In this document: positions 24,836 to 36,933 of the stretch, piece after piece
How the letters are laid out: each line of letters starts with the position of its first letter
Position numbering within the stretch: position 1 is the stretch's first letter
Source: Tautonia plasticadhaerens
GTDB lineage: Bacteria; Planctomycetota; Planctomycetia; Isosphaerales; Isosphaeraceae
NCBI RefSeq assembly: GCF_007752535.1
Contig: NZ_CP036426.1
Coordinates: forward strand, 6,324,001-6,388,000
Direction: 5' to 3'
DNA: 64,000 nt
Position numbers and translations under genes: made by a program
The notes under the pieces: model-generated
The model's database searches: none
Seen by the model: only the letters and a program-made list of their open reading frames with translations
Told to the model about the DNA's origin: nothing

Positions 24836-25061
24836 GTCGGGGTGATCCTTGGGGGCAGGGCGTCAATCGTTCGGATGGCCGGGGTTGTCGGCTCGGATCG
24901 GTTCGGACGGCATGGTACCCGAACCGGCCAGGGGCCCGCGACCGCCTCTCCCCCCGATCCCCCGGGCCGACCGCAGGGATGTTGCCAACGGGCATCGCCG
25001 CGCGAGATCGTGTCAGTGTCACCCCCGATCGACCGCCGTCCGCCCCCGGAGCCGACGACCC

Positions 25062-26372
25062 ATGACCCCCCGCGCCGTCGACCTCATCCGCCGCAAGCGA
25101 CAGGGCGGCACCCTGGAACCGACCGAGATCCGGTGGCTGGTCGACGGCCTCTGCTCCGGCTCCGTCCCCGACTACCAGTGGGCCGCCCTGCTCATGGCCG
25201 TGATGTGGCGGGGGATGGACGCCGAGGAGACCGAGGCGCTGACCCATGCCATGATGCACTCCGGCACGATCGTCGACCTGTCGATGATCCCCGGCCGGAA
25301 GGTGGACAAGCACAGCACCGGGGGCGTCGGCGACAAGACCTCGCTCGTCCTCGCCCCGATCGTCGCCTCCTGCGGCCTCCCCGTGCCCATGGTCTCCGGC
25401 CGGGGGCTCGGCCACACCGGGGGGACGCTCGACAAGCTGGAGTCGATCCCCGGCTTCGACATCCACCTCGACCTCGACGGCTACAAGCGTGTCCTGGCCG
25501 ACTGCGGGCTCGTCCTCATCGGCCAGACCCCCGAGATCGCCCCGGCCGACAAGCGGATCTACGCCTTGCGCGACGCGACCGCCACCGTCGAGTCCATCCC
25601 GCTGCTCACCTCCTCGATCCTCTCCAAGAAGCTCGCCGAGGGGATCGACGGCCTCGTGCTCGACGTGAAAACCGGCGACGGCGCCTTCATGGAGTCGCTC
25701 GACGACTCCCGGGCCCTAGCCGAGTCGCTCTGCCGCATCGGTCGGGGGCTGGGAAAGGAGGTCGTCGCCCTGATCACCCGGATGGACCAGCCGCTCGGCA
25801 AGGCCGTCGGCAACGCCGTCGAGGTGGCCGAATGCGTCCGGGTCCTCCGGGGCGAGGGCCCCGAGGACCTCCGGGACCTCTCCATCGCCCTCGCCGCCGA
25901 GATGCTCGTGCTCGGCGGCGTGGCCGAATCGCTCGAAGACGGGACCGAGCTGTGCTTCCGATCGATCACCACGGGCGCCGCCCTCGACCACTTCCGGCGC
26001 GTCGTCGAGGCCCAGGGGGGAGACCCCCGGGCGGTCGACGACCTGACCCGGCTCCCCGTGCCGACCGTCCTCCGGGACGTGCCCTCCCCGAGCGCGGGGG
26101 TCGTCACCTCCTGCTGGGCCCGGCCGATCGGCCACGCGGCCATGCTCCTCGGCGCCGGGAGGGCCCGGGCCGAGGACGCCATCGACCCCGCCGTCGGCAT
26201 CCTCCTGCACAAGAAGCTCGGCGACCGGGTCGCCGAGGGGGAGCCCCTGTGCACCGTCCTCGCCAACGCCGAAGGCCCCGTGCTGGACCGGGCGCTCGCC
26301 GAGGTCGCCGCCGCGTTCGAGGTCGGCGACGGCCCCGTGACGGTTCCCGACCTGATCGTTGAGCGCCTCTGA
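25062..26372 (+). CDS. deoA: thymidine/pyrimidine-nucleoside phosphorylase
   Basis: Phosphorolyses pyrimidine nucleosides to base and (deoxy)ribose-1-phosphate. 436 aa. It shows the helical N-terminal domain (AVDLIRRKRQGG), the phosphate site DKHSTGGVGDKTS and the family signature SGRGLGHTGGTLDKLESIPG. It also has YALRDATATVESIPLL and the C-terminal GILLHKKLGDRVAEGEPL. The ATG at 25062 has GGAG upstream, and longer in-frame starts add only Arg/Pro-rich sequence. The family cannot be split by eye into thymidine-specific DeoA and broad Pdp. Confidence 0.94.
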   Translation: MTPRAVDLIRRKRQGGTLEPTEIRWLVDGLCSGSVPDYQWAALLMAVMWRGMDAEETEALTHAMMHSGTIVDLSMIPGRKVDKHSTGGVGDKTSLVLAPIVASCGLPVPMVSGRGLGHTGGTLDKLESIPGFDIHLDLDGYKRVLADCGLVLIGQTPEIAPADKRIYALRDATATVESIPLLTSSILSKKLAEGIDGLVLDVKTGDGAFMESLDDSRALAESLCRIGRGLGKEVVALITRMDQPLGKAVGNAVEVAECVRVLRGEGPEDLRDLSIALAAEMLVLGGVAESLEDGTELCFRSITTGAALDHFRRVVEAQGGDPRAVDDLTRLPVPTVLRDVPSPSAGVVTSCWARPIGHAAMLLGAGRARAEDAIDPAVGILLHKKLGDRVAEGEPLCTVLANAEGPVLDRALAEVAAAFEVGDGPVTVPDLIVERL

Positions 26373-26692
26373 GCCCTCGCCGACCCGGGAATCCCAGGCC
26401 CCCTCCGACTCCGGCCGGGCTCGGCATCCCCCCCGGCCTCGCGGCCCCCCTCGGAATCGATCCCCGCCCCGATCGGCGTCCCGGTCCGCATCACCGAAAT
26501 TCCGGGTGACTGCCGAGCCCCGATTCCCCGATGTTATCGTCGTCGTCCTCCCGATCCTCCCCCGCTCGCAACGGCATCACGGAATCACCCAAGCGATGAA
26601 TTTGCGCCCGCCGAACCTCGCCCCCGGCTCGTTCCCCTTGACGAAGCCGGTCCCGCCGGCATCCGCCCGATCCGATGCGGCCTGGTGCGCGG

Positions 26693-26724
26693 AACGAAGC
26701 CAATCGCCCGGCGGAGCGAACCCA
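26693..26724. repeat. 32-base interspersed repeat, copy 1
   Basis: The copy begins AACGAAGCCAATCGC and ends CGGAGCGAACCCA. The second copy is at 26930-26961 in the same orientation with two mismatches in the middle. Neither copy is palindromic. Confidence 0.7.
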
Positions 26725-26929
26725 AATCCGAATCCAGAATCCCCATCCCCATCACAACTTACGACGAAATCCCCCGGCCGCACCTGCGCGCACCGGTCCC
26801 GTGTCGCCCGGCGCACCGCCCCCCGTTCGCCCCTCGACCCGAGGCCAGAGACGGGCCCAGTCGCCGTTCGCCCCAGCCTCCCGACATTCGCCCTAAAAGG
26901 GCCGACCCGGGAGACCGCGGTTCGAACGA

Positions 26930-26961
26930 AACGAAGCCAATCGCGCGACGGAGCGAACCCA
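26930..26961. repeat. 32-base interspersed repeat, copy 2
   Basis: Same orientation as the copy at 26693-26724, 237 bases apart start to start, 30 of 32 bases identical. It is followed by a stretch of low GC leading to the nucleoside transporter gene. Confidence 0.7.
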
Positions 26962-27092
26962 TTTGATTTTCCCGAGACCATTATCCGATTGATAGTTACG
27001 CCGAAATGACCCCCGGGGCAGCAAGCGCACCGACCGCGTCCCGTCCCCGGATCGCCACGTCCATCCCGAATCCACCAGGGAGCCGACCGCCC

Positions 27093-28493
27093 ATGGTCCG
27101 ATCGCTGCGATTGCTTCCCCTGATCGTCGCGCTGCTTTCGGGCGGCGCCACGGCCCAGGAGGCCGGGGCCGGGGGGACGCAGGACCCGAACCCGTCTGGA
27201 ATCTCGGTCGACGCCGACGGGGAGGTGGCGGGGCCCGGCATCGGGTGGGGCAAGGCCCAGGGGGTTCTCGGGATCCTGGTCTTCCTGGGGATCGCGGCGG
27301 CATGCTCGGAGAATCGCCGGGCGATCTCGGCCCGGACGGTCCTCCCCGGGCTCGGGCTCCAGGTCGCGCTGGGGCTGCTGCTGATCCTGGTCCCGGCCGG
27401 GCGGCGGGCGATGCAGGCGGCCTCGGCGTTCGTGGTCCTGATCCTGGACTGCGCGGTCACCGGGGCGGAATTCGTGTTCGGCCCGCAGCTGGTCGACCCG
27501 GGGGGCCCGGCGGGGTTCGTCTTCGCGTTCAGGGTCCTGCCGACGGTCATCTTCGTGGCGGCCCTCTTCGCGGTGCTCTACCAGGTCGGCGTCATGCAGG
27601 TGGTCGTCCGGGGATTCGCCCGGGTGATGGCCCGGCTGCTCGGCTCCAGCGGGGCCGAGTCGCTGAACGTTGCGGCCTCCCTGTTTTTGGGTCAGACCGA
27701 GGCCCCGCTGACGATCCGGCCCTTCCTGGCGGGGCTGACGCGGTCGGAACTGATGGTGGTGATGGTCTCGGGCATGGCGTTGGTGTCCGGGGGTGTCCTC
27801 GGGGCCTACATCGAGGCCGGGGCCGAGCCCGGGGCATTGTTGACGGCGATCCTGATGAATGCCCCGGCCTCGATCGTCCTGGCCAAGATCGTCGTGCCCG
27901 AGACCGACCGGCCCGAGACGCTCGGCCGGGTCGATGCCGACGCCTCCCCGAAGGACGCCAACGTCATCGATGCCGCCGCGAGGGGGACCCGGGAGGGCCT
28001 GCAACTGGCCCTGAATATCGCCGCGATCCTGATAACCTTCATCGCCCTGATCACCCTGGTCGACGCCGGGCTGCTCGCCCTCGGGGACGCCCTGGCCGAT
28101 TGGTCGGGCGGGCGGTTGCCGACGGAGGGCCTGTCGCTGGGGGCGATCCTCGGCGTCCTGCTCGCCCCGGCGGCCTGGCTGATCGGCGTCCCCTGGTCGG
28201 ATTGCGTGGAGGTCGGCGGCCTGCTCGGATCCCGGCTGGTCCTGAACGAGCTGGTGGCCTATGGGCAGCTCGGCGAGGCGGCCTCGCAATTGCTGCCGAG
28301 ATCGGGGACAATCGCCACCTTCGCCCTCTGCGGGTTCGCCAACCTCAGCTCGATCGGCATCCAGGTCGGCGGGATCGGCGCCCTGGTCCCGGAACGGAGG
28401 CCGGACCTCTCCCGGCTGGGCCTTCGGGCCCTGCTCGCGGCGACGCTCGCCAACTTCCTGACCGCCAGCATCACGGGGATCCTGCTCTCGTGA
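27093..28493 (+). CDS. concentrative nucleoside transporter, NupC/CNT family
   Basis: 466-aa inner-membrane symporter that imports nucleosides with H+ or Na+. After a signal-like helix (SLRLLPLIVALLSGG) and a short polar segment come about nine membrane helices. CNT signatures are VLPTVIFVAALFAVLYQVGV, FLGQTEAPLTIRPFL, MALVSGGVLGAYI and, near the end, FALCGFANLSSIGIQVGG. It is followed after 8 bases by a purine nucleoside phosphorylase gene, so uptake and cleavage are coupled. I prefer the ATG at 27093, which opens the signal-like helix, over one at 27006. Confidence 0.92.
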   Translation: MVRSLRLLPLIVALLSGGATAQEAGAGGTQDPNPSGISVDADGEVAGPGIGWGKAQGVLGILVFLGIAAACSENRRAISARTVLPGLGLQVALGLLLILVPAGRRAMQAASAFVVLILDCAVTGAEFVFGPQLVDPGGPAGFVFAFRVLPTVIFVAALFAVLYQVGVMQVVVRGFARVMARLLGSSGAESLNVAASLFLGQTEAPLTIRPFLAGLTRSELMVVMVSGMALVSGGVLGAYIEAGAEPGALLTAILMNAPASIVLAKIVVPETDRPETLGRVDADASPKDANVIDAAARGTREGLQLALNIAAILITFIALITLVDAGLLALGDALADWSGGRLPTEGLSLGAILGVLLAPAAWLIGVPWSDCVEVGGLLGSRLVLNELVAYGQLGEAASQLLPRSGTIATFALCGFANLSSIGIQVGGIGALVPERRPDLSRLGLRALLAATLANFLTASITGILLS

Positions 28494-28501
28494 GGACGTC
28501 G

Positions 28502-29353
28502 ATGCTCTATTCAAAGGCCTCGGCGGCCGCCGAGGCCGTCGCCCGCCGGGCCCCGGGCCACATCGACGTCGGGGCCGTGCTCGGCTCCGGCCTGGGGGGG
28601 CTGGCCGACCGGCTGGCCGACCCGGTGGTGATCCCGTACGAGGAGATCCCCCACTTCCCCGCGCCGACGGTCCCCGGCCATGCCGGCCGCCTGCGGATCG
28701 GCTCGATCGGCGGGTCGAGGGTCGCCATGTTCCAGGGCCGCTTCCACCACTACGAGGGGCACGACCTGGACGCCGTGACCTTCCCCATCCGCGTCCTGCA
28801 GCGGCTCGGCGTCCCCCGGCTGGTCCTCACGGCGGCGACCGGGGGAATCCGCGACGACCTCGGCCCCGGCTCGATCGTCTGCCTCTCCGACCACCTGAAC
28901 CTCCTGGGCCGGTCTCCGCTCCGGGGGGCGAATGACGACCGCCTCGGGCCCCGGTTCCCGGACCTGACCGAGGTCTATGCGTCCCGGCTCCGGTCGATCG
29001 CCGTCGAGGAAGCCGCACGACTCGGCCTGCCCCTCCCGGAGGGCGTCTACGCCTGCCTCCCCGGGCCGACCTACGAGACCCCGGCGGAGATCCGGATGCT
29101 CCGCACGCTGGGGGCCGACGTCGTCGGCATGTCCACCGTCCCCGAGGCGATCGTCGCCCGACACGGCGGCCAGGAGGTGCTCGGCTTGGTGGTCGTCTCC
29201 AACTGGGCGGCCGGGATCAGCCCGGTCCCCCTCTCCCACGCCGAGGTCCTGGAGGCCAGCCACGCCGTCGGGGGCCGGCTCGCCGACCTCGTCGAGGCGG
29301 TCCTGCTCCGGCTCGCCTCCGACTCCCCACCACCCCGAACCGAAGCCCCCTGA
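28502..29353 (+). CDS. purine-nucleoside phosphorylase (class I, trimeric)
   Basis: Phosphorolyses purine nucleosides to base and pentose-1-phosphate. 283 aa. It shows VLGSGLGGLADRL, the phosphate-site GRFHHYEGH, LTAATGGI, LPGPTYETPAEIRML and VGMSTVPEAIVARHGG, then VVSNWAAGIS at the base-binding site. The ATG has GAGG 8 bases upstream; a GTG at 28490 that overlaps the transporter stop is also possible. It is the partner of the upstream nucleoside transporter. Confidence 0.94.
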   Translation: MLYSKASAAAEAVARRAPGHIDVGAVLGSGLGGLADRLADPVVIPYEEIPHFPAPTVPGHAGRLRIGSIGGSRVAMFQGRFHHYEGHDLDAVTFPIRVLQRLGVPRLVLTAATGGIRDDLGPGSIVCLSDHLNLLGRSPLRGANDDRLGPRFPDLTEVYASRLRSIAVEEAARLGLPLPEGVYACLPGPTYETPAEIRMLRTLGADVVGMSTVPEAIVARHGGQEVLGLVVVSNWAAGISPVPLSHAEVLEASHAVGGRLADLVEAVLLRLASDSPPPRTEAP

Positions 29354-29871: not shown

Positions 29872-31242
29872 TCATCGCCCCTCGTAGGCCCGGTCGAGCA
29901 GGTCGATCGGGTGCTCCACCTCGATCCCGCTGCCGAATTCCTTCGCCTTGCGGGCGATCTGGAGGATGCAACCGACGTTGCCGGTGACGACCGCCTCGGC
30001 CCCGGTGGCGAGGATGTGATCCATCTTGCGTCGGCCGAGTCGCTCCGACATCTCCGGCTCGGTCAGGTTGTACGTCCCGGCGGCCCCGCAGCAGATCTCC
30101 GTCTCCTCCAGCGGCACCAGCTCCAGCCCCGGGATCATCTCGAGCAATTGCCTCGGCTGGGCGCGGACCTTCTGGGCATGGGCGAGGTGGCAGGCGTCGT
30201 GATAAGTCACTTTGCGGTACGGGACCGGGTGCTCCGGGGCGATCGGCCCGAGCTGCACCAGGTACTCGGAGACGTCCTTGACCTTGGCCGCGAACTTCGA
30301 GGCCCGCTCCCGATCGGCCTCCGGCAGCAGGTGACCGTAGTCCTTGAGCATCGCCCCGCAGCCGGCCGCATTGACGATGATCGCGTCGACCGAGTCCAGG
30401 TCGAAGGCGTCGAGGTTGGCCCGGGCCAGGTCGAAGGCCGGCCCCTCGATCCCCGAGTGGTAGTGGATCGCCCCGCAGCACGCCTGGGCCCGGGGCACGA
30501 CGACCTCGCAGCCGTTCCTCCGCAGGACCCGGGCCGTCGCGGCGTTCGTGTCCGGGAACATCGCGTCGGCGACGCAGCCCAGGAACAACGCCACCTTCGC
30601 CCGCTTCGGGCCGATCGGCGGCAGGACCTCGGGCAGCCTCGATCCGCCCCCGGAGAGCTTCGGCAGCATCGCCTGCAACCGTCGGAGCGTCGGCGGCAGC
30701 AGCTTCGTCAGGCCGATCCGCTCGGCGGCATCCAGCAGTCCGACCTTCTGCATCAGCCGGGCCGGGACCAGCGCCAGCCGGACCCGGTCGCCGTAGGGGA
30801 ACAGGTGCCGGAGGATCAGGGCCTGGAGCCAGCTCCGCTTGCCCGGCGGGGCCGACTGCTGCAACGCCACCTTGAACGGCTCGATGAGCTGCCCGTACTT
30901 CACGCCCGAGGGGCAGGCCGTCTCGCAGGCCCGGCAGTCGAGGCAGAGGTCCAGGTGGCGCCGGACCTCGTCGCTGGCCGAGAGGCGGCCATCGACGATT
31001 CCCCGCATCAGGTAGATCCGGCCCCGGGGGCCGTCATTCTCATTGCCGGTCTCGACGTAAGTGGGGCAGCTCGCGGTGCAGAGGCCGCAGTGGACGCATT
31101 CCTGGAAGCGTCGGTAGTCGATCTTCTCGGCCAGCCAGTCCAGGTCGACGCCGGCCTCGGTCGGCCGGGGGGCCTTGGAGGCCGCCGTCGGGTCGGCGCC
31201 GGGGGCGGATTCCGGCCGTTGGGAGGAGACGGCGGTGGTCAT
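29872..31242 (-). CDS. glcF: glycolate oxidase iron-sulfur subunit GlcF
   Basis: Electron-transfer subunit that passes electrons from glycolate (or lactate) oxidation to the membrane quinone pool. 456 aa from the chosen ATG. Two 4Fe-4S ferredoxin motifs are present, CVHCGLCTASCP and CLDCRACETACPSG. Two CCG-type motifs follow, QACCGAIHYHSG and EICCGAAGTYN. The conserved part begins at DLDWLAEKIDYRRFQ, so the ATG at 31242 and an in-frame one at 31326 (5 bases from the glcE end) are both possible; neither has a clear ribosome site. Last gene of the glc run. Confidence 0.93.
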   Translation of the reverse strand: MTTAVSSQRPESAPGADPTAASKAPRPTEAGVDLDWLAEKIDYRRFQECVHCGLCTASCPTYVETGNENDGPRGRIYLMRGIVDGRLSASDEVRRHLDLCLDCRACETACPSGVKYGQLIEPFKVALQQSAPPGKRSWLQALILRHLFPYGDRVRLALVPARLMQKVGLLDAAERIGLTKLLPPTLRRLQAMLPKLSGGGSRLPEVLPPIGPKRAKVALFLGCVADAMFPDTNAATARVLRRNGCEVVVPRAQACCGAIHYHSGIEGPAFDLARANLDAFDLDSVDAIIVNAAGCGAMLKDYGHLLPEADRERASKFAAKVKDVSEYLVQLGPIAPEHPVPYRKVTYHDACHLAHAQKVRAQPRQLLEMIPGLELVPLEETEICCGAAGTYNLTEPEMSERLGRRKMDHILATGAEAVVTGNVGCILQIARKAKEFGSGIEVEHPIDLLDRAYEGR

Positions 31243-31330
31243 GGATCGGCTCGCAATCGATCGGAGGGGGTCGGGCGTCGGATCCGGCGTGGGGGGCGGG
31301 GCGCCGGGCATCGTCGCGGGGCCCATTGTA

Positions 31331-32581
31331 TCAGAGGAAGCGGCCCGGATTCATCGCCCCGGCGGGGTCGAGGGCCCGCTTGATCCTCCGGGCCAGCTCC
31401 CAGTCCCCCCTCGGGGCGCCCCAGACGCCGAGGCCGGCCTTGCGGTCCGTCGGGCATCTCGGCAAGGTCAGGTTCCCCTCGGCGGCGATCGCCCGCTCCC
31501 GGAGCCTCCCCACGTCGGCGACCAGGTCATCCTCGGGCGCGTCGGGCCTTGACAGCCCCCAGGCGATCCCGTTCCCGGCGTGGCACTGCACCGCCCAGTA
31601 CTCCGGATCGATGGCGTGGACGAATGCCGGGAGTGCCGAGGGGACCAGGGTCGCCTTGAATGTAAACGTCGTCCCGGTCGCCGGATGCCCGACCAGCGCG
31701 GCCCAGAGGCGATCCGCCCCCTCGGCCCGCACCGCGACCCGGCCCGAATCTCCCACCAGTTCTCCCCCCAGGGCGTCCACCTGCCAGGAGACGACCTCGG
31801 CCGAACCCTCCAGCCCGATGGCCAGCACCGCACCGCCGGCCGGGAGGTCCAGGCCCGCCTCCCTCGCGATCGCCGCCGCCGCCGGCCGGTTGAGCAGCTC
31901 GACGGCCACGGGACGCGACCTCGAGGCGTTCAGGGCCCCGAGCACCGACTCGACCTTGGCCGCCCACGTCCAGCTCGACCAGACGATCGCCGAGGTCTCC
32001 GGCCGGGGTCGGGTCTTGAGGGTCAGCTCGGCGATCACCCCGAGGCTGCCCATCGACCCGGTCAGGAGCTTCGGGAAGTCGTACCCGGCGACGTTCTTCA
32101 CGACCCGTCCCCCGCCCCGGATCAGCTCCCCGGTCGATGAGGCGAAGGCGATGCCGAGGATCTGGTCCCGGGGCCTCCCCAGTCCGAACCGCCTCGGGCC
32201 GCTCGAATCGGTGGCGAAGACGCCGCCGATCGTGGCCCGTTCGGGGTGGGGGGCCTCCAGCGTGAGGCGTTGCCCCTCGGCGGCGAGGGCCTGACGGAGC
32301 CGGTCGAGGGTGACGCCCGACTCGACGGTGATCGTCATGTCGGCGGCCGGGTAGTCGACCACCCGGTCCAGGCCGGTGGTGTCCAGGATCGTGCCGGGCC
32401 GGTCGGGGACGCCGCCGCATTCGATCGCCGTCCTGCCCCCCTGGGGGTAGATCGCCGAGCCCTCGGCGGTCAGCCGGCCGAGGGCCTCGGCAAGGGAGTC
32501 TCGGCTGTCGGGCCGCTCGACGGCCGAGGCGTACCGGTGGTCACCGAGGGGCAGGTCGTTGGGGGCGTCGGGCCAGTTCAT
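31331..32581 (-). CDS. glcE: glycolate oxidase FAD-binding subunit GlcE
   Basis: FAD-linked subunit of the glycolate dehydrogenase complex, 416 aa. The PCMH-type FAD domain shows SAIYPQGGRTAIECGG, the pyrophosphate loop ATIGGVFATDSSGPRRFG and RVVKNVAGYDFPKLLTGSMG, followed by the substrate-side domain. It lies between the histidine kinase gene (62 bases upstream) and glcF. Confidence 0.93.
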   Translation of the reverse strand: MNWPDAPNDLPLGDHRYASAVERPDSRDSLAEALGRLTAEGSAIYPQGGRTAIECGGVPDRPGTILDTTGLDRVVDYPAADMTITVESGVTLDRLRQALAAEGQRLTLEAPHPERATIGGVFATDSSGPRRFGLGRPRDQILGIAFASSTGELIRGGGRVVKNVAGYDFPKLLTGSMGSLGVIAELTLKTRPRPETSAIVWSSWTWAAKVESVLGALNASRSRPVAVELLNRPAAAAIAREAGLDLPAGGAVLAIGLEGSAEVVSWQVDALGGELVGDSGRVAVRAEGADRLWAALVGHPATGTTFTFKATLVPSALPAFVHAIDPEYWAVQCHAGNGIAWGLSRPDAPEDDLVADVGRLRERAIAAEGNLTLPRCPTDRKAGLGVWGAPRGDWELARRIKRALDPAGAMNPGRFL

Positions 32582-32643
32582 CTCGCGCTCGTCGGGGATC
32601 GGGGGGAAATCGAGATCGGTGGAGAGCGGGGCGGCGGGGCGAC

Positions 32644-34611
32644 TCAGACGACTTCCTGGACGGCCCGATGGGGAGATCGGGCCGGGGGCCTCAGGGGGAG
32701 GCGGACGATGAAGCAGGACCCCTCGCCGGGGAGGGAGTCGACCTCGATCGTCCCGCCGTGGTCTAGGACGATGCCGTAGCTGATCGACAGGCCCAGACCC
32801 GTGCCGATGCCGACCGGCTTGGTGGTGAAGAAGGGGTCGAAGATCCGGTCCCTGATCTTGGCGTCGATGCCGCAGCCGTCGTCCCGCACCTCGACGCAGA
32901 CGCCCTCCTCCCCCGGGCAGCTCCTGGATCGGATGAGCACCCGCCCGTTGGTCTCGCAGGCGTCGATGCCGTTGACGATCAGGTTCATCAGCACCTGGTT
33001 GATCTTGGCCGCGTGGCAGGACACCGGGGGCAGCGTACCCAGCTCGCAGACGACCTCGACTTGCCGCTTCTTGGCATAGCCGAGGATGATGTTCACCGAG
33101 GATTCGATCCCGGAATTCAGGTCGACCTCGGCGAGGTCCCCTTCGTCGAGCCGGGCGAAGACGCGGAGATCCTTGACGATGTCGTGGATGCGACGCAGGC
33201 CATCCCGGGTGCGATCGAGCAGCCCTCGGAGGTTCTCCAGCGTGTAGTCGATGTCAATCTCGTCGCAGTAGTTCCGGACCTCCTCGGCCAGGTCCGGTTC
33301 GCTCTCGGCGAGGGAGGCGTCGCCCCGTCGGTAGAGGCGGATGAGGTTGTGCAGCTCGACCAGGTCGCGTTGGAGCACCGCGACGTTGTTGCCCACGAAG
33401 GCCAGCGGATTGTTGATCTCGTGGGCCACCCCGGCGACGAGCTGGCCCAGCCCGGCGAGCTTGGCGGACTCGACCATCCGGCTTTGCGCCTGCTCACGTT
33501 CCTCCAGCGCCCTGCGTTCGGACTTGGCCATGTCCTGGAGCAACTGGTTCTGGGCGCGGAGCAGTTCCTCGGCCATCTTGCGGTCGTGGATGTCGCTGAT
33601 CGATCCGGCCATACGGACGGGCTGGCCGCTCTCGTCCCAGACCGCCTGCCCCCGGGCGAGGAACCAGTGGAACTGCCCGGCCTTGTCCCGGAGCCGGTAC
33701 TCCACCACGTACGGCTCCTGGTCGTGCAGGTGGCGCTGGCCGACGGCCTCCACCCGAGGCCGGTCCTCGGGGTGCAGGTGGTCCATGAACGTCTCGATCC
33801 GCCCCGGGAACTCGTCCTCCCCGTAGCCGAGAAGCTCCTTGAACCGGGGGGAGTAGTACGTGTCGTTGGTCCGGACGTTCCAGTCCCAGAGGCCGTCGTT
33901 GGTGCCCCGGACGGCCAGGGCGAACCGCTCCTCGCTGGCGGCCAAGGCCTCCAGGGTGCGGTACTGCTCGGTCACGTCCCAGAAGATGCACTGGAGCCCC
34001 ACCACCCTGCCCGTCGGGTCGCGGAGGGGAGACTTCGTCACCTGGACGCGGCGGACCTCGCCGTCGTGATTGACGTGGGCCTCGACGTCCTCCAGCGCCT
34101 CGCCAGACTGCATGACCCGGAGGTCGTCCCGGCGGTATTTCTCGGCCAACGACTCCGGATAGAAGTCGTAATCGGTCCGGCCGAGGATCTCCTCAAGCGG
34201 CCGCTCCAGCGAGGTGCAGAATCGGCGATTGGCGAAGGTGAACCGCCCCTGGGCGTCCTTGCGGAAGATGTTCTGGGGCAGGTTCTCGACGAGCGAATGG
34301 TAAAAGGCCTCGGAGGCGAGCCAGGCGTCCTCCGCCTTGCCACGGCGGAGCGATTGGTTCCTCAGCTCTTCGTTGAGGCGATCGGTCCGGACCCAGAGCG
34401 CCCGGATCACCAGTAACGCCCCCCCCAGCAAGGCCAGCATCAGGACGACGCTCGCCAACGCCAGCGGGTTGTCGATCGGCAGGCCCACCTGGGCCGCCGG
34501 GATGATCAGCATGGGGATCGACGACCGAGGCGCAGCCGACCGCCCGGCCGGGGACCGGAGCTCCGGCGGCGGTTCAATGGCCGGGTAGTGGCGTCGGCGA
34601 GGATGGGTCAT
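32644..34611 (-). CDS. PAS-domain sensor histidine kinase
   Basis: 655 aa. One membrane helix lies near residues 50-72 (LALASVVLMLALLGGALLVI), with a short N-terminal segment outside. Two PAS domains follow, at about 100-225 and about 230-350, the second with a PAC motif. The HisKA dimerisation domain contains VAGVAHEINNPLAFVG with the phosphoacceptor H397. The HATPase domain has LMNLIVNG (N box), DDGCGID (G1), FDPFFTTKP (F box) and GTGLGLSISYGIV (G2). There is no receiver domain and no response regulator nearby. Its ATG overlaps the end of the upstream gene by 38 bases, so it belongs to the glc run and may sense a related metabolite or redox state. Confidence 0.93.
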   Translation of the reverse strand: MTHPRRRHYPAIEPPPELRSPAGRSAAPRSSIPMLIIPAAQVGLPIDNPLALASVVLMLALLGGALLVIRALWVRTDRLNEELRNQSLRRGKAEDAWLASEAFYHSLVENLPQNIFRKDAQGRFTFANRRFCTSLERPLEEILGRTDYDFYPESLAEKYRRDDLRVMQSGEALEDVEAHVNHDGEVRRVQVTKSPLRDPTGRVVGLQCIFWDVTEQYRTLEALAASEERFALAVRGTNDGLWDWNVRTNDTYYSPRFKELLGYGEDEFPGRIETFMDHLHPEDRPRVEAVGQRHLHDQEPYVVEYRLRDKAGQFHWFLARGQAVWDESGQPVRMAGSISDIHDRKMAEELLRAQNQLLQDMAKSERRALEEREQAQSRMVESAKLAGLGQLVAGVAHEINNPLAFVGNNVAVLQRDLVELHNLIRLYRRGDASLAESEPDLAEEVRNYCDEIDIDYTLENLRGLLDRTRDGLRRIHDIVKDLRVFARLDEGDLAEVDLNSGIESSVNIILGYAKKRQVEVVCELGTLPPVSCHAAKINQVLMNLIVNGIDACETNGRVLIRSRSCPGEEGVCVEVRDDGCGIDAKIRDRIFDPFFTTKPVGIGTGLGLSISYGIVLDHGGTIEVDSLPGEGSCFIVRLPLRPPARSPHRAVQEVV

Positions 34612-35368
34612 GGGCGGAATAATACCGGATGTCCTGGCCCGAGAGGACACGATCGACGGCCTCCTGCACGAGCCGGAGCACGTCGACCGTCGCCTCGTCG
34701 ACCGAGGCGCCGGCCCAGGCCTCGGAGGTGAGGATTTGCCCCTCGAAGGCCAGCTTGTGCAAGGCGTAGGCGAGCGTCCGATCGATCGTCGAGGCCCCGC
34801 GATGGCCGGCCTCCAGGTCGATCAGCGCCTGCATCAGCTCCCGGCCGACTTCGGGGCCGATCGGTCCACCCCTCCGGAGTGCGGGGAGGAATGCTTCGGG
34901 ATCTTGCCCCACCAGGCCGGCGTGCCGGAAGACGATCTCAACGGCGGGCCGTTCCACGAGCGTCTCCCCCGGCTCCGGGACGTCGGCCCCGGTGACCGGC
35001 CCGGCCCCCTGCCCCTCGACTTCCCCCCCGGGTCGGTCGAGCAGCGAGGCGGTCCATTCGGCCAGGTAGTCCGGGTCGTCGGCGATGGCGAGCAGGCCGT
35101 CGAGTCGCCCGCGACGCACCTCGACCTCCTCCCGGCGGTCCCTGGCATTCTCCTCCTCGATCGCCCGGAGCAGCAGGGCCTCGCAGTAGCGCTGGACGGT
35201 GTCGACCCCCGCCCGCATTGCCTGCTCCTCTGCGAGGTCGAGGGCGGGGGCCGGCAGGTAAATGCTGACCCGCTGCGCCTCGGCGGACGGGTCGGGGCCC
35301 TTCCGCTCATGGGAGCGGAAAGTGCCGGGCACGTGCCTTCTCCTGGGGATTCCGGGCCGCTTGCTCAC
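34574..35368 (-). CDS. protein with ribbon-helix-helix-like N-terminal region
   Basis: 264 aa from a GTG start supported by GGGGAGG about 5 bases upstream. Residues 1-25 are basic. A stretch at about 28-65 (QRVSIYLPAPALDLAEEQA... YCEALLLRAIEEEN) has the beta-helix-helix pattern of ribbon-helix-helix DNA-binding or antitoxin-like proteins. The rest is helical with no family I recognise; ASTIDRTLAYALHKLAFEGQ is a notable amphipathic segment. It sits 49 bases after glcD and overlaps the kinase start, so it is part of the glc transcript. A regulatory role is inferred. Confidence 0.65.
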   Translation of the reverse strand: MSKRPGIPRRRHVPGTFRSHERKGPDPSAEAQRVSIYLPAPALDLAEEQAMRAGVDTVQRYCEALLLRAIEEENARDRREEVEVRRGRLDGLLAIADDPDYLAEWTASLLDRPGGEVEGQGAGPVTGADVPEPGETLVERPAVEIVFRHAGLVGQDPEAFLPALRRGGPIGPEVGRELMQALIDLEAGHRGASTIDRTLAYALHKLAFEGQILTSEAWAGASVDEATVDVLRLVQEAVDRVLSGQDIRYYSAHDPSSPTPLPGH

Positions 35369-35417
35369 CTCGCCTCCCCGGACCCGAACCGACGACGAAG
35401 CCGAATGGTCCCGAATC

Positions 35418-36878
35418 TCAGGCCGAGGCCCTGCGGCCCGGGCTCTTGCGCTCGATGCAGCCGACGCCGACCGGGAGCATCTTCCCCGGGCTGCACCGCC
35501 CCTCGGGATTGAAGACCTCCCGGATGGCGACCATCGCCTGCAGGTCGGCCGCCGAGTACAGCTTGGGCATGAACTCCATCTTCTCGACCCCGATGCCGTG
35601 CTCCCCCGTGACGCTGCCGCCGCAGGCGATGCACTCTTCGAGGATCTCGTGGCTGGCGTCGAGCACCCGCCGGACCTGGGCCGGGTCCTGCTCGTCGAAC
35701 AGGAGGATGGGGTGGATGTTGCCGTCGCCGGCGTGGAAGACGTTGGCGATCCGGATGCCATACTTCGAGCCGATCTCGGTGATCCTCCTGAGGATGTGCG
35801 GCAGCTTGGTCCGGGGGACGACGCCGTCCTGGGTGCAGAAGGTCGGGCTCAGCCGGCCGATGGCGCCGAAGGCGGACTTCCGGGCCTTCCAGATGGCGAC
35901 GTACTCCGGCTCCTTGCGGGTGGTCCAGGCGATCGCGTTCTTGACGGACCCTCCGTTGGCCCGGACGACCTCGGCCACCGCCTCGGCCTCGCGTTCCAGC
36001 CCGGCTTCGAGCCCGTCAACTTCCATGATGAGCACCGCCCCGGCCTCGGTCGGGAAGCCGAAGCCGAAGGCTTCCTCGACGGCCCGGATCATGAGGTTGT
36101 CGAGCATCTCCAGGGCCGCCGGGACGATCCCGGCACCGATCAGGCCGCTGACCGCCTCGGTCGCCTGCTCGACGTCCTCGAAGACGCCGAGGAAGGTCCG
36201 GCCGGCCTCGGGGTCCCTCGTCAGGTTGACGATGACCTTGGTGACGACGCCGAAGGTCCCCTCGTTGCCGACTACCAAGCCGGTGAGATCCAGGCCGGGC
36301 ACGTCCTCGGTTTTGCCGCCGATCTGGGCGACCGTGCCGTCGGGCAGGACCAGCTCGACCCCCCGGACGTGATTGACCGTGACCCCGTATTTCAGGGTGT
36401 GCGGCCCGCCGGAGTTCGTCGCCACGTTGCCGCCGACGGTGCAGGCGGTCTGGCTGGACGGGTCGGGGGCGTAGTGGAAGCCGGACCCGCCCAGGGCCCG
36501 GGTGAGCCAGACGTTAACCACGCCGGGCTCGACCACGGCGTAGCGGTCCCGGGTGTTGATCTCCAGGATCTTCTTCATCCGGGTCAGGCAGATCATCACC
36601 CCGCCCCCGACGGCCAGGGTGCCGCCGGCCAGGCTCGTCCCCGCCCCCCGGGGGACGAACGGCACGTCGTACTGGTTGCAGAGCTTCACCACCGAGACGA
36701 CCTGCTCCGTCGAGGTCGGGAAGACGACCACGTCGGGCACGTTCTTCTCGATGACGTAGCCGTCACATTCGTAGACGACCAACTCGTCCCGGTGGTGCAG
36801 CAGGTTCTCCTCGCCGACGGCACGGGCCAGCTCGGCGCGGAGGGACGGGGAGATGTCGACAGACTGGGCGACGGCCAT
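35418..36878 (-). CDS. glcD: glycolate oxidase / FAD-linked dehydrogenase subunit GlcD
   Basis: Catalytic FAD subunit oxidising glycolate to glyoxylate (or D-lactate to pyruvate). 486 aa. The FAD-binding PCMH domain has VPFVPRGAGTSLAGGTLAV, CTVGGNVATNSGGPHTLKYG and GLVVGNEGTFGVVTKVIV. The C-terminal domain has IANVFHAGDGNIHPILL and GGSVTGEHGIGVEKMEF, whose histidines are metal or substrate ligands. It is the first gene of a five-gene run with glcE and glcF. A 26-base palindrome lies 30 bases upstream of the start. Confidence 0.95.
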   Translation of the reverse strand: MAVAQSVDISPSLRAELARAVGEENLLHHRDELVVYECDGYVIEKNVPDVVVFPTSTEQVVSVVKLCNQYDVPFVPRGAGTSLAGGTLAVGGGVMICLTRMKKILEINTRDRYAVVEPGVVNVWLTRALGGSGFHYAPDPSSQTACTVGGNVATNSGGPHTLKYGVTVNHVRGVELVLPDGTVAQIGGKTEDVPGLDLTGLVVGNEGTFGVVTKVIVNLTRDPEAGRTFLGVFEDVEQATEAVSGLIGAGIVPAALEMLDNLMIRAVEEAFGFGFPTEAGAVLIMEVDGLEAGLEREAEAVAEVVRANGGSVKNAIAWTTRKEPEYVAIWKARKSAFGAIGRLSPTFCTQDGVVPRTKLPHILRRITEIGSKYGIRIANVFHAGDGNIHPILLFDEQDPAQVRRVLDASHEILEECIACGGSVTGEHGIGVEKMEFMPKLYSAADLQAMVAIREVFNPEGRCSPGKMLPVGVGCIERKSPGRRASA

Positions 36879-36907: not shown

Positions 36908-36933
36908 GTCGCCCCGCCCCGGGGCGGGGCGAC
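36908..36933. terminator. perfect 26-base palindrome between recQ and glcD
   Basis: GTCGCCCCGCCCC is followed directly by its exact complement GGGGCGGGGCGAC. It lies 30 bases upstream of the glcD ATG and 145 bases past the recQ stop. It may be a terminator for recQ or an operator for the glc run. Confidence 0.5.

Follow-up and report, generated by a model that had tools for sequence, protein, structure and literature searches.

Among the closest described counterparts of the locus analysed here is the glycolate oxidase operon of Escherichia coli, glcDEFGB, with GlcC. In Tautonia plasticadhaerens, within a 64-kb window (the whole stretch of DNA that was analysed), genes for three subunits with the expected domains likewise occupy a single strand, but glcD is separated from glcE by two genes, which encode a protein denoted X and a histidine kinase. 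X is comparable to ribbon-helix-helix (RHH) regulators with an extra C-terminal domain (NikR, AtaR-/TacA-type antitoxins, MatP): its N-terminal half, as predicted, superposes on these proteins and is followed by a second domain. However, this second domain showed no clear likeness to theirs in the structure comparison and, in contrast to AtaR-/TacA-type antitoxins and NikR, X has no adjoining toxin gene or nickel genes. The kinase shares the PAS, HisKA and HATPase_c domains with AtoS-like orphan kinases (AtoS is among its best named NCBIfam relatives, all of which score below the cut-off), but its gene lies within a cluster of metabolic genes, where it immediately follows X. Judging by titles and the opening parts of abstracts, none of the listed papers on glycolate oxidase genes, their regulators and planctomycete kinases describes this arrangement.

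PMC7716859 describes T. plasticadhaerens ElP as having a chromosome and five plasmids, and places Tautonia in the Isosphaeraceae; the genome comprises 9,395,224 bp in 6 contigs. As read from the open reading frames, the minus strand carries, from 36878 to 29872, glcD, X, the two-PAS histidine kinase, glcE and glcF, in this order (Table 1). The ORF coordinates thus confirm the first-pass annotation, which had placed these five genes on one strand with a 38-nt overlap between X and the kinase. The remaining spacings are 49 nt between glcD and X, 62 nt between the kinase and glcE, and 88 nt between glcE and glcF, the last of these with the glcF start at 31242, which was taken as the nearest to the conserved region (the longest ORF runs from 31326). 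X starts with a GTG codon, as it does in most of the relatives compared. The gene order is identical in all four Tautonia genomes, so the arrangement is not due to chance. A nucleoside-salvage cluster at 24849-29353 on the plus strand, encoding a pyrimidine-nucleoside phosphorylase, a nucleoside transporter and a purine-nucleoside phosphorylase-like protein, converges on glcF; pnp and nupC also adjoin glcF or glcE in several relatives.

Table 1. Features of the glc locus, with positions in the window.
Feature	Position	Strand	Basis
glcD-like FAD oxidase subunit, 486 aa	35418..36878	-	Pfam PF02913, PF01565; NCBIfam glcD 475 bits (cut-off 568)
X, predicted ribbon-helix-helix protein with helical C-terminal domain, 264 aa	34574..35368	-	fold prediction; conserved in family
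PAS-PAS histidine kinase, orphan, 655 aa	32644..34611	-	PAS_4, PAS_3, HisKA, HATPase_c (Pfam)
glcE-like FAD-binding subunit, 416 aa	31331..32581	-	PF01565; NCBIfam GlcE 168 bits (cut-off 284)
glcF-like iron-sulfur subunit	29872..31242	-	PF02754, Fer4 families; NCBIfam GlcF 314 bits (cut-off 333)
perfect 26-bp palindrome, candidate operator at most	36908..36933	.	29 nt upstream of glcD

All three oxidase subunits have the domain make-up of GlcDEF in Pfam, with FAD_binding_4 and FAD-oxidase_C across glcD and glcE, and CCG and Fer4 in glcF. GlcD, GlcE and GlcF are also the best-scoring NCBIfam families for the three proteins, although none reaches the cut-off of the respective curated equivalog. 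The substrate is therefore uncertain, and the safe designation is a GlcDEF-like 2-hydroxyacid oxidase, for which glycolate is a plausible substrate.

The first-pass annotation called X RHH-like, and fold prediction supports this call. In the AlphaFold2 model (mean pLDDT 77.6), an extended stretch is followed by high-confidence helices at residues 40-53 and 58-96 and by a helical domain at 141-243, and the N-terminal 113 residues modelled alone adopt the same fold. The N-terminal half (residues about 30-96) is thus predicted to be an RHH domain, with the strand-helix-helix order of such proteins. Comparison of this half with PDB structures (122 chains aligned) yielded predominantly RHH proteins, identified as such in part by their entry titles. 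Among these, E. coli NikR superposes at 0.9-1.2 A over 45-48 residues and PutA at 1.1 A over 44 residues; CopG, Arc, AmrZ, AtaR and MatP were matched as well. Each single match is weak (best Z 7.7, none reaching 8; best Foldseek E 0.21), so the RHH assignment relies on the many concordant RHH entries together with the strand pattern R33-V-S-I-Y37-L, in which R33 is nearly invariant. The strand residues R33 and Y37 are suggestive of DNA binding by the paired strands of a dimer, and only suggestive.

Sequence-based searches did not recover this relationship. The X protein of the window has no match to a Pfam or NCBIfam family. When curated RHH models were run on 32 members of the X family, the best results were Pfam RHH_7 at E 0.07 and the NCBIfam BrnA antitoxin at E 0.0041, each in one of the 32 proteins and neither in the X of the window. 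Sequence profiles compared with the PDB retrieved no RHH protein (best E 0.83 for whole X and 0.067 for the N-terminal half, the latter to a designed protein), and Foldseek with the whole X model gave no match at E 0.001 or better. A known fold for the C-terminal half was sought, but no telling match was obtained: the matches were varied helical proteins with Z of 8.3 or lower, below the level at which the tool is telling for helical bundles. The C-terminal domain does resemble a planctomycete domain found in L145, L147 and L148, which is followed by HEAT repeats in the L147 protein and itself has no Pfam family in the two proteins scanned (L145 and L147). Comparison of the two profiles gave 94% probability and E 1.1e-7, in one pairwise comparison against a set that had been chosen with the same profile; the RHH half of X had no such match.

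The distribution of X was surveyed in 45 Isosphaeraceae genomes from 21 genera. X was found in 42 of these (25 of the 26 good-quality ones) as one gene per genome, additional matches being due to contig breaks (G014, G016) or weak and partial (G009, G031); for G012, the match covered only the C-terminal part of X. In the three genomes of the survey where X was not matched (G013, G024, G025), a gap of about 90-120 nt separates glcD from glcE. A profile of X matched 46 of 397 genomes of the class, of which 42 are Isosphaeraceae and the other four gave weak, partial matches. With at most six candidates scored per genome, this search might miss distant relatives, and X appears to be family-specific as far as tested. 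A scan of named genomes for X gave 24 loci. The records of three X-bearing contigs (L142, L143, L144) are titled Candidatus Kuenenia stuttgartiensis; the titles look wrong, the genomes (G036, G034 and G037, all of genus g19) being placed in the Isosphaeraceae.

In 38 of the 42 X-bearing genomes, the next gene downstream of X is glcE, or else the kinase followed by glcE. This count includes 36 genomes with X placed upstream on the same strand plus G014 and G016, in which the contig ends within X beside glcE (glcE at most 50 nt from the X match). Of the 29 kinase-free loci that were measured, with start codons picked by rule, 20 show a 4-nt overlap between X and glcE; in the other nine, 8 to 231 nt lie between the two genes, which leaves too little room for a kinase. 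The slot of X ahead of glcE is kept in most of the family genomes surveyed; a kinase lies between X and glcE in only seven of the 38. In the G006 genome, an opposite-strand prepilin-like gene, by our reading of its N-terminal sequence (GFTLIELLVVIAIIGVLIALL), lies between glcD and X (L040, 1788-2843, minus strand).

From its position and overlap, X seems to be produced together with the oxidase; its fold suggests DNA binding, and in combination these features point to a local regulator. Our preferred reading, put forward tentatively and at somewhat below an even chance, is that X regulates the operon of the GlcDEF-like oxidase and that the kinase, as an orphan sensor, relies on an unlinked response regulator for its output. 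X would be a family-specific RHH transcription regulator encoded with the oxidase genes and overlapping them in most relatives. Its dimer would most likely bind operator DNA via the N-terminal half and tune its own operon, and the helical C-terminal half may be the part that binds an effector or a partner. If so, X would represent a new family of RHH regulators with an uncharacterised effector domain, and would offer a direct handle on the control of glycolate or lactate oxidation in these planctomycetes, a subject on which the listed papers offered nothing pertinent.

X is not strictly linked to the oxidase genes, nor do they require it, given that X is unlinked in four genomes and that glcD and glcE occur without it in three. 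X lies apart from the glc genes in the four g19 genomes: in three, it immediately follows a gene that, by our reading, resembles the nucleoside phosphorylase gene of the window, and in G035, that gene is about 3.7 kb away. Since the nupC/pnp neighbourhood is found near glc in many relatives too, X might be no more than a passenger in a conserved neighbourhood, a regulator whose targets may lie outside the glc genes. We consider this rather unlikely because 38 of the 42 X-bearing genomes have it ahead of glcE, often with the 4-nt overlap, and because it stays with glcE even where glcD has moved elsewhere (G012, G017, G018, G019, G020). The same tight coupling to glcE would fit X being a partner of the oxidase or a factor for its assembly, with the RHH fold serving as a dimerisation module and not in a DNA-binding regulator. 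The C-terminal domain points in this direction as well, being related to one that occurs beside HEAT repeats, an architecture that often serves protein contacts. However, the oxidase genes persist without X in three genomes and with X elsewhere in four, and the RHH strand retains an arginine that presumably faces outward, all of which makes a partner role improbable.

Rough dN/dS estimates (NG86, with dS saturated) between G040 and G041 were about 0.23 for X, 0.03 for the kinase (over a 625-aa part), 0.13 for glcE and 0.02 for glcD. For the window compared with G042, they were about 0.31 for X, 0.26 for the kinase and 0.12 for glcD. Thus, all four genes are under constraint, and X is the fastest-changing; the constraint on X fits the preferred reading.

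The kinase of the window combines PAS_4, PAS_3, HisKA and HATPase_c (Pfam), the domains of a sensor histidine kinase, and contains the H box VAHEINNPL and the motif GTGLGLSISY. It is not restricted to this strain, a possibility that the first-pass annotation had named as one that would speak against its proposal: a kinase lies in the same slot between X and glcE in seven genomes of four genera, namely the four Tautonia genomes, G027 (g17), G006 (g5) and G004 (g3). With starts as chosen, the kinase overlaps X by 4 nt in G042, G006 and G004, and 21 nt separate the two genes in G027; the kinase start is uncertain in G040 and G041. The sensor parts vary. Two PAS domains are present in the Tautonia proteins scanned (the window and G042); a phosphonate-binding-protein-like domain accompanies PAS_4 and PAS_3 in G027; and one PAS region follows a long N-terminal part, partly hydrophobic as judged by eye, in G006 and G004.

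In a first tree of kinases (27 rows), the seven operon rows require three changes and form one group in 0% of 200 bootstrap trees. After removal of L161, in which 31% of the columns are filled, and L169, which has a very long branch, the operon rows form one group in the tree of 25 rows, with support of 53/83, which is not significant. In the tree of glcD-glcE-glcF, constructed from 38 of the 45 genomes (without G014, G016, G019, G021, G025, G036 and G037), the kinase-bearing genera are scattered, so that several gains, losses or transfers are needed to account for the kinase. The kinase is an optional extra, and the lasting intruder in the glc cluster is X.

No receiver domain (PF00072) was detected in the 64-kb window, and hence no response regulator beside the kinase, which bears out what the first-pass annotation had noticed. 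The genome encodes 109 receiver domains above the cut-off, the nearest of them 24 kb and 252 kb outside the window, so an unlinked response regulator is the plain expectation. The first-pass annotation instead proposed that X could be an unconventional output of the kinase, both belonging to one pathway made in a fixed ratio with the oxidase. The lack of a receiver domain in the window is in keeping with this proposal, as is the position of the kinase directly behind X in all seven kinase-bearing genomes, with overlaps of 38 nt in the window and 4 nt in three others. However, 31 of the 38 genomes with X before glcE have no kinase in between, which makes it unlikely that X is there to serve as the output of the kinase. 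In addition, Pfam and NCBIfam searches identified no receiver domain in X, and the sensor parts of the kinases differ. We regard a single pathway of this kind as very doubtful; judged by gene order, a fixed proportion of kinase to oxidase could apply to four of the 21 genera. Under the preferred reading, with X as the local regulator, the kinase, where present between X and glcE, would probably be co-transcribed with them, sense through its PAS domains and signal to a response regulator encoded elsewhere, not via X. The kinase-bearing genera would then exemplify how an optional sensor is added to a gene cluster with a regulator of its own.

Upstream of glcD, the arms of the palindrome (Table 1) are 13 nt long, compared to a mean of 6.5 in shuffled sequences, and none of 60 shuffles produced arms as long. 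It is the sole copy in the genome within three mismatches, and the regions ahead of glcD in the other three Tautonia genomes showed no such palindrome; it is possibly an operator or a hairpin. Among 31 regions upstream of glcD (five loci lacking a true glcD and one region that was too short were excluded), no conserved operator was found. Inverted repeats with p of 0.03 or lower (60 shuffles each) occur in five of the 31, with differing sequences and places, and two of the five (L040, L086) begin at least 200 nt upstream. The promoter scan returned no sigma-70-like sites against 0.3 expected, and the terminator scan one terminator-like site against 2.0 expected, counts that carry no information either way. 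Scanning the window with Rfam (at the gathering threshold) and for tRNAs gave no match.

glcD and glcE were searched for in 128 genomes of the class, and 65 genomes outside the family have matches to both above our thresholds. The two genes are within 350 nt of each other in 32 of these 65, 0.5-2.5 kb apart in seven, and unlinked or on another contig or strand in 26, where a break between contigs may look like unlinking and the best-matching glcD is not necessarily the partner of glcE. The premise that glycolate oxidase subunits are normally contiguous thus holds for about half of these genomes. In three genomes of genus g23, family f3 (G046, G070, G091), the gap between glcD and glcE is filled by a same-strand FHA-GAF-HD gene (L171, 3323-4954; L172, 3049-4683; L173, 3614-5311) with Pfam HD_5 and HD matches; by our reading of a GYP motif, the HD part appears to be an HD-GYP domain. 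Taken together with X across the Isosphaeraceae and with PAS kinases of varied sensors in four genera, this gene in another family raises the prospect that the glcD-glcE junction of planctomycete 2-hydroxyacid oxidase operons has served repeatedly as a docking site where signalling genes insert, coupling this oxidase to a regulatory output time after time. X would then be a novel kind of RHH regulator that senses the state of the oxidase. We consider this broader view unlikely to be correct. A seeming remnant of the FHA-GAF-HD gene was also observed in G064 (L175).
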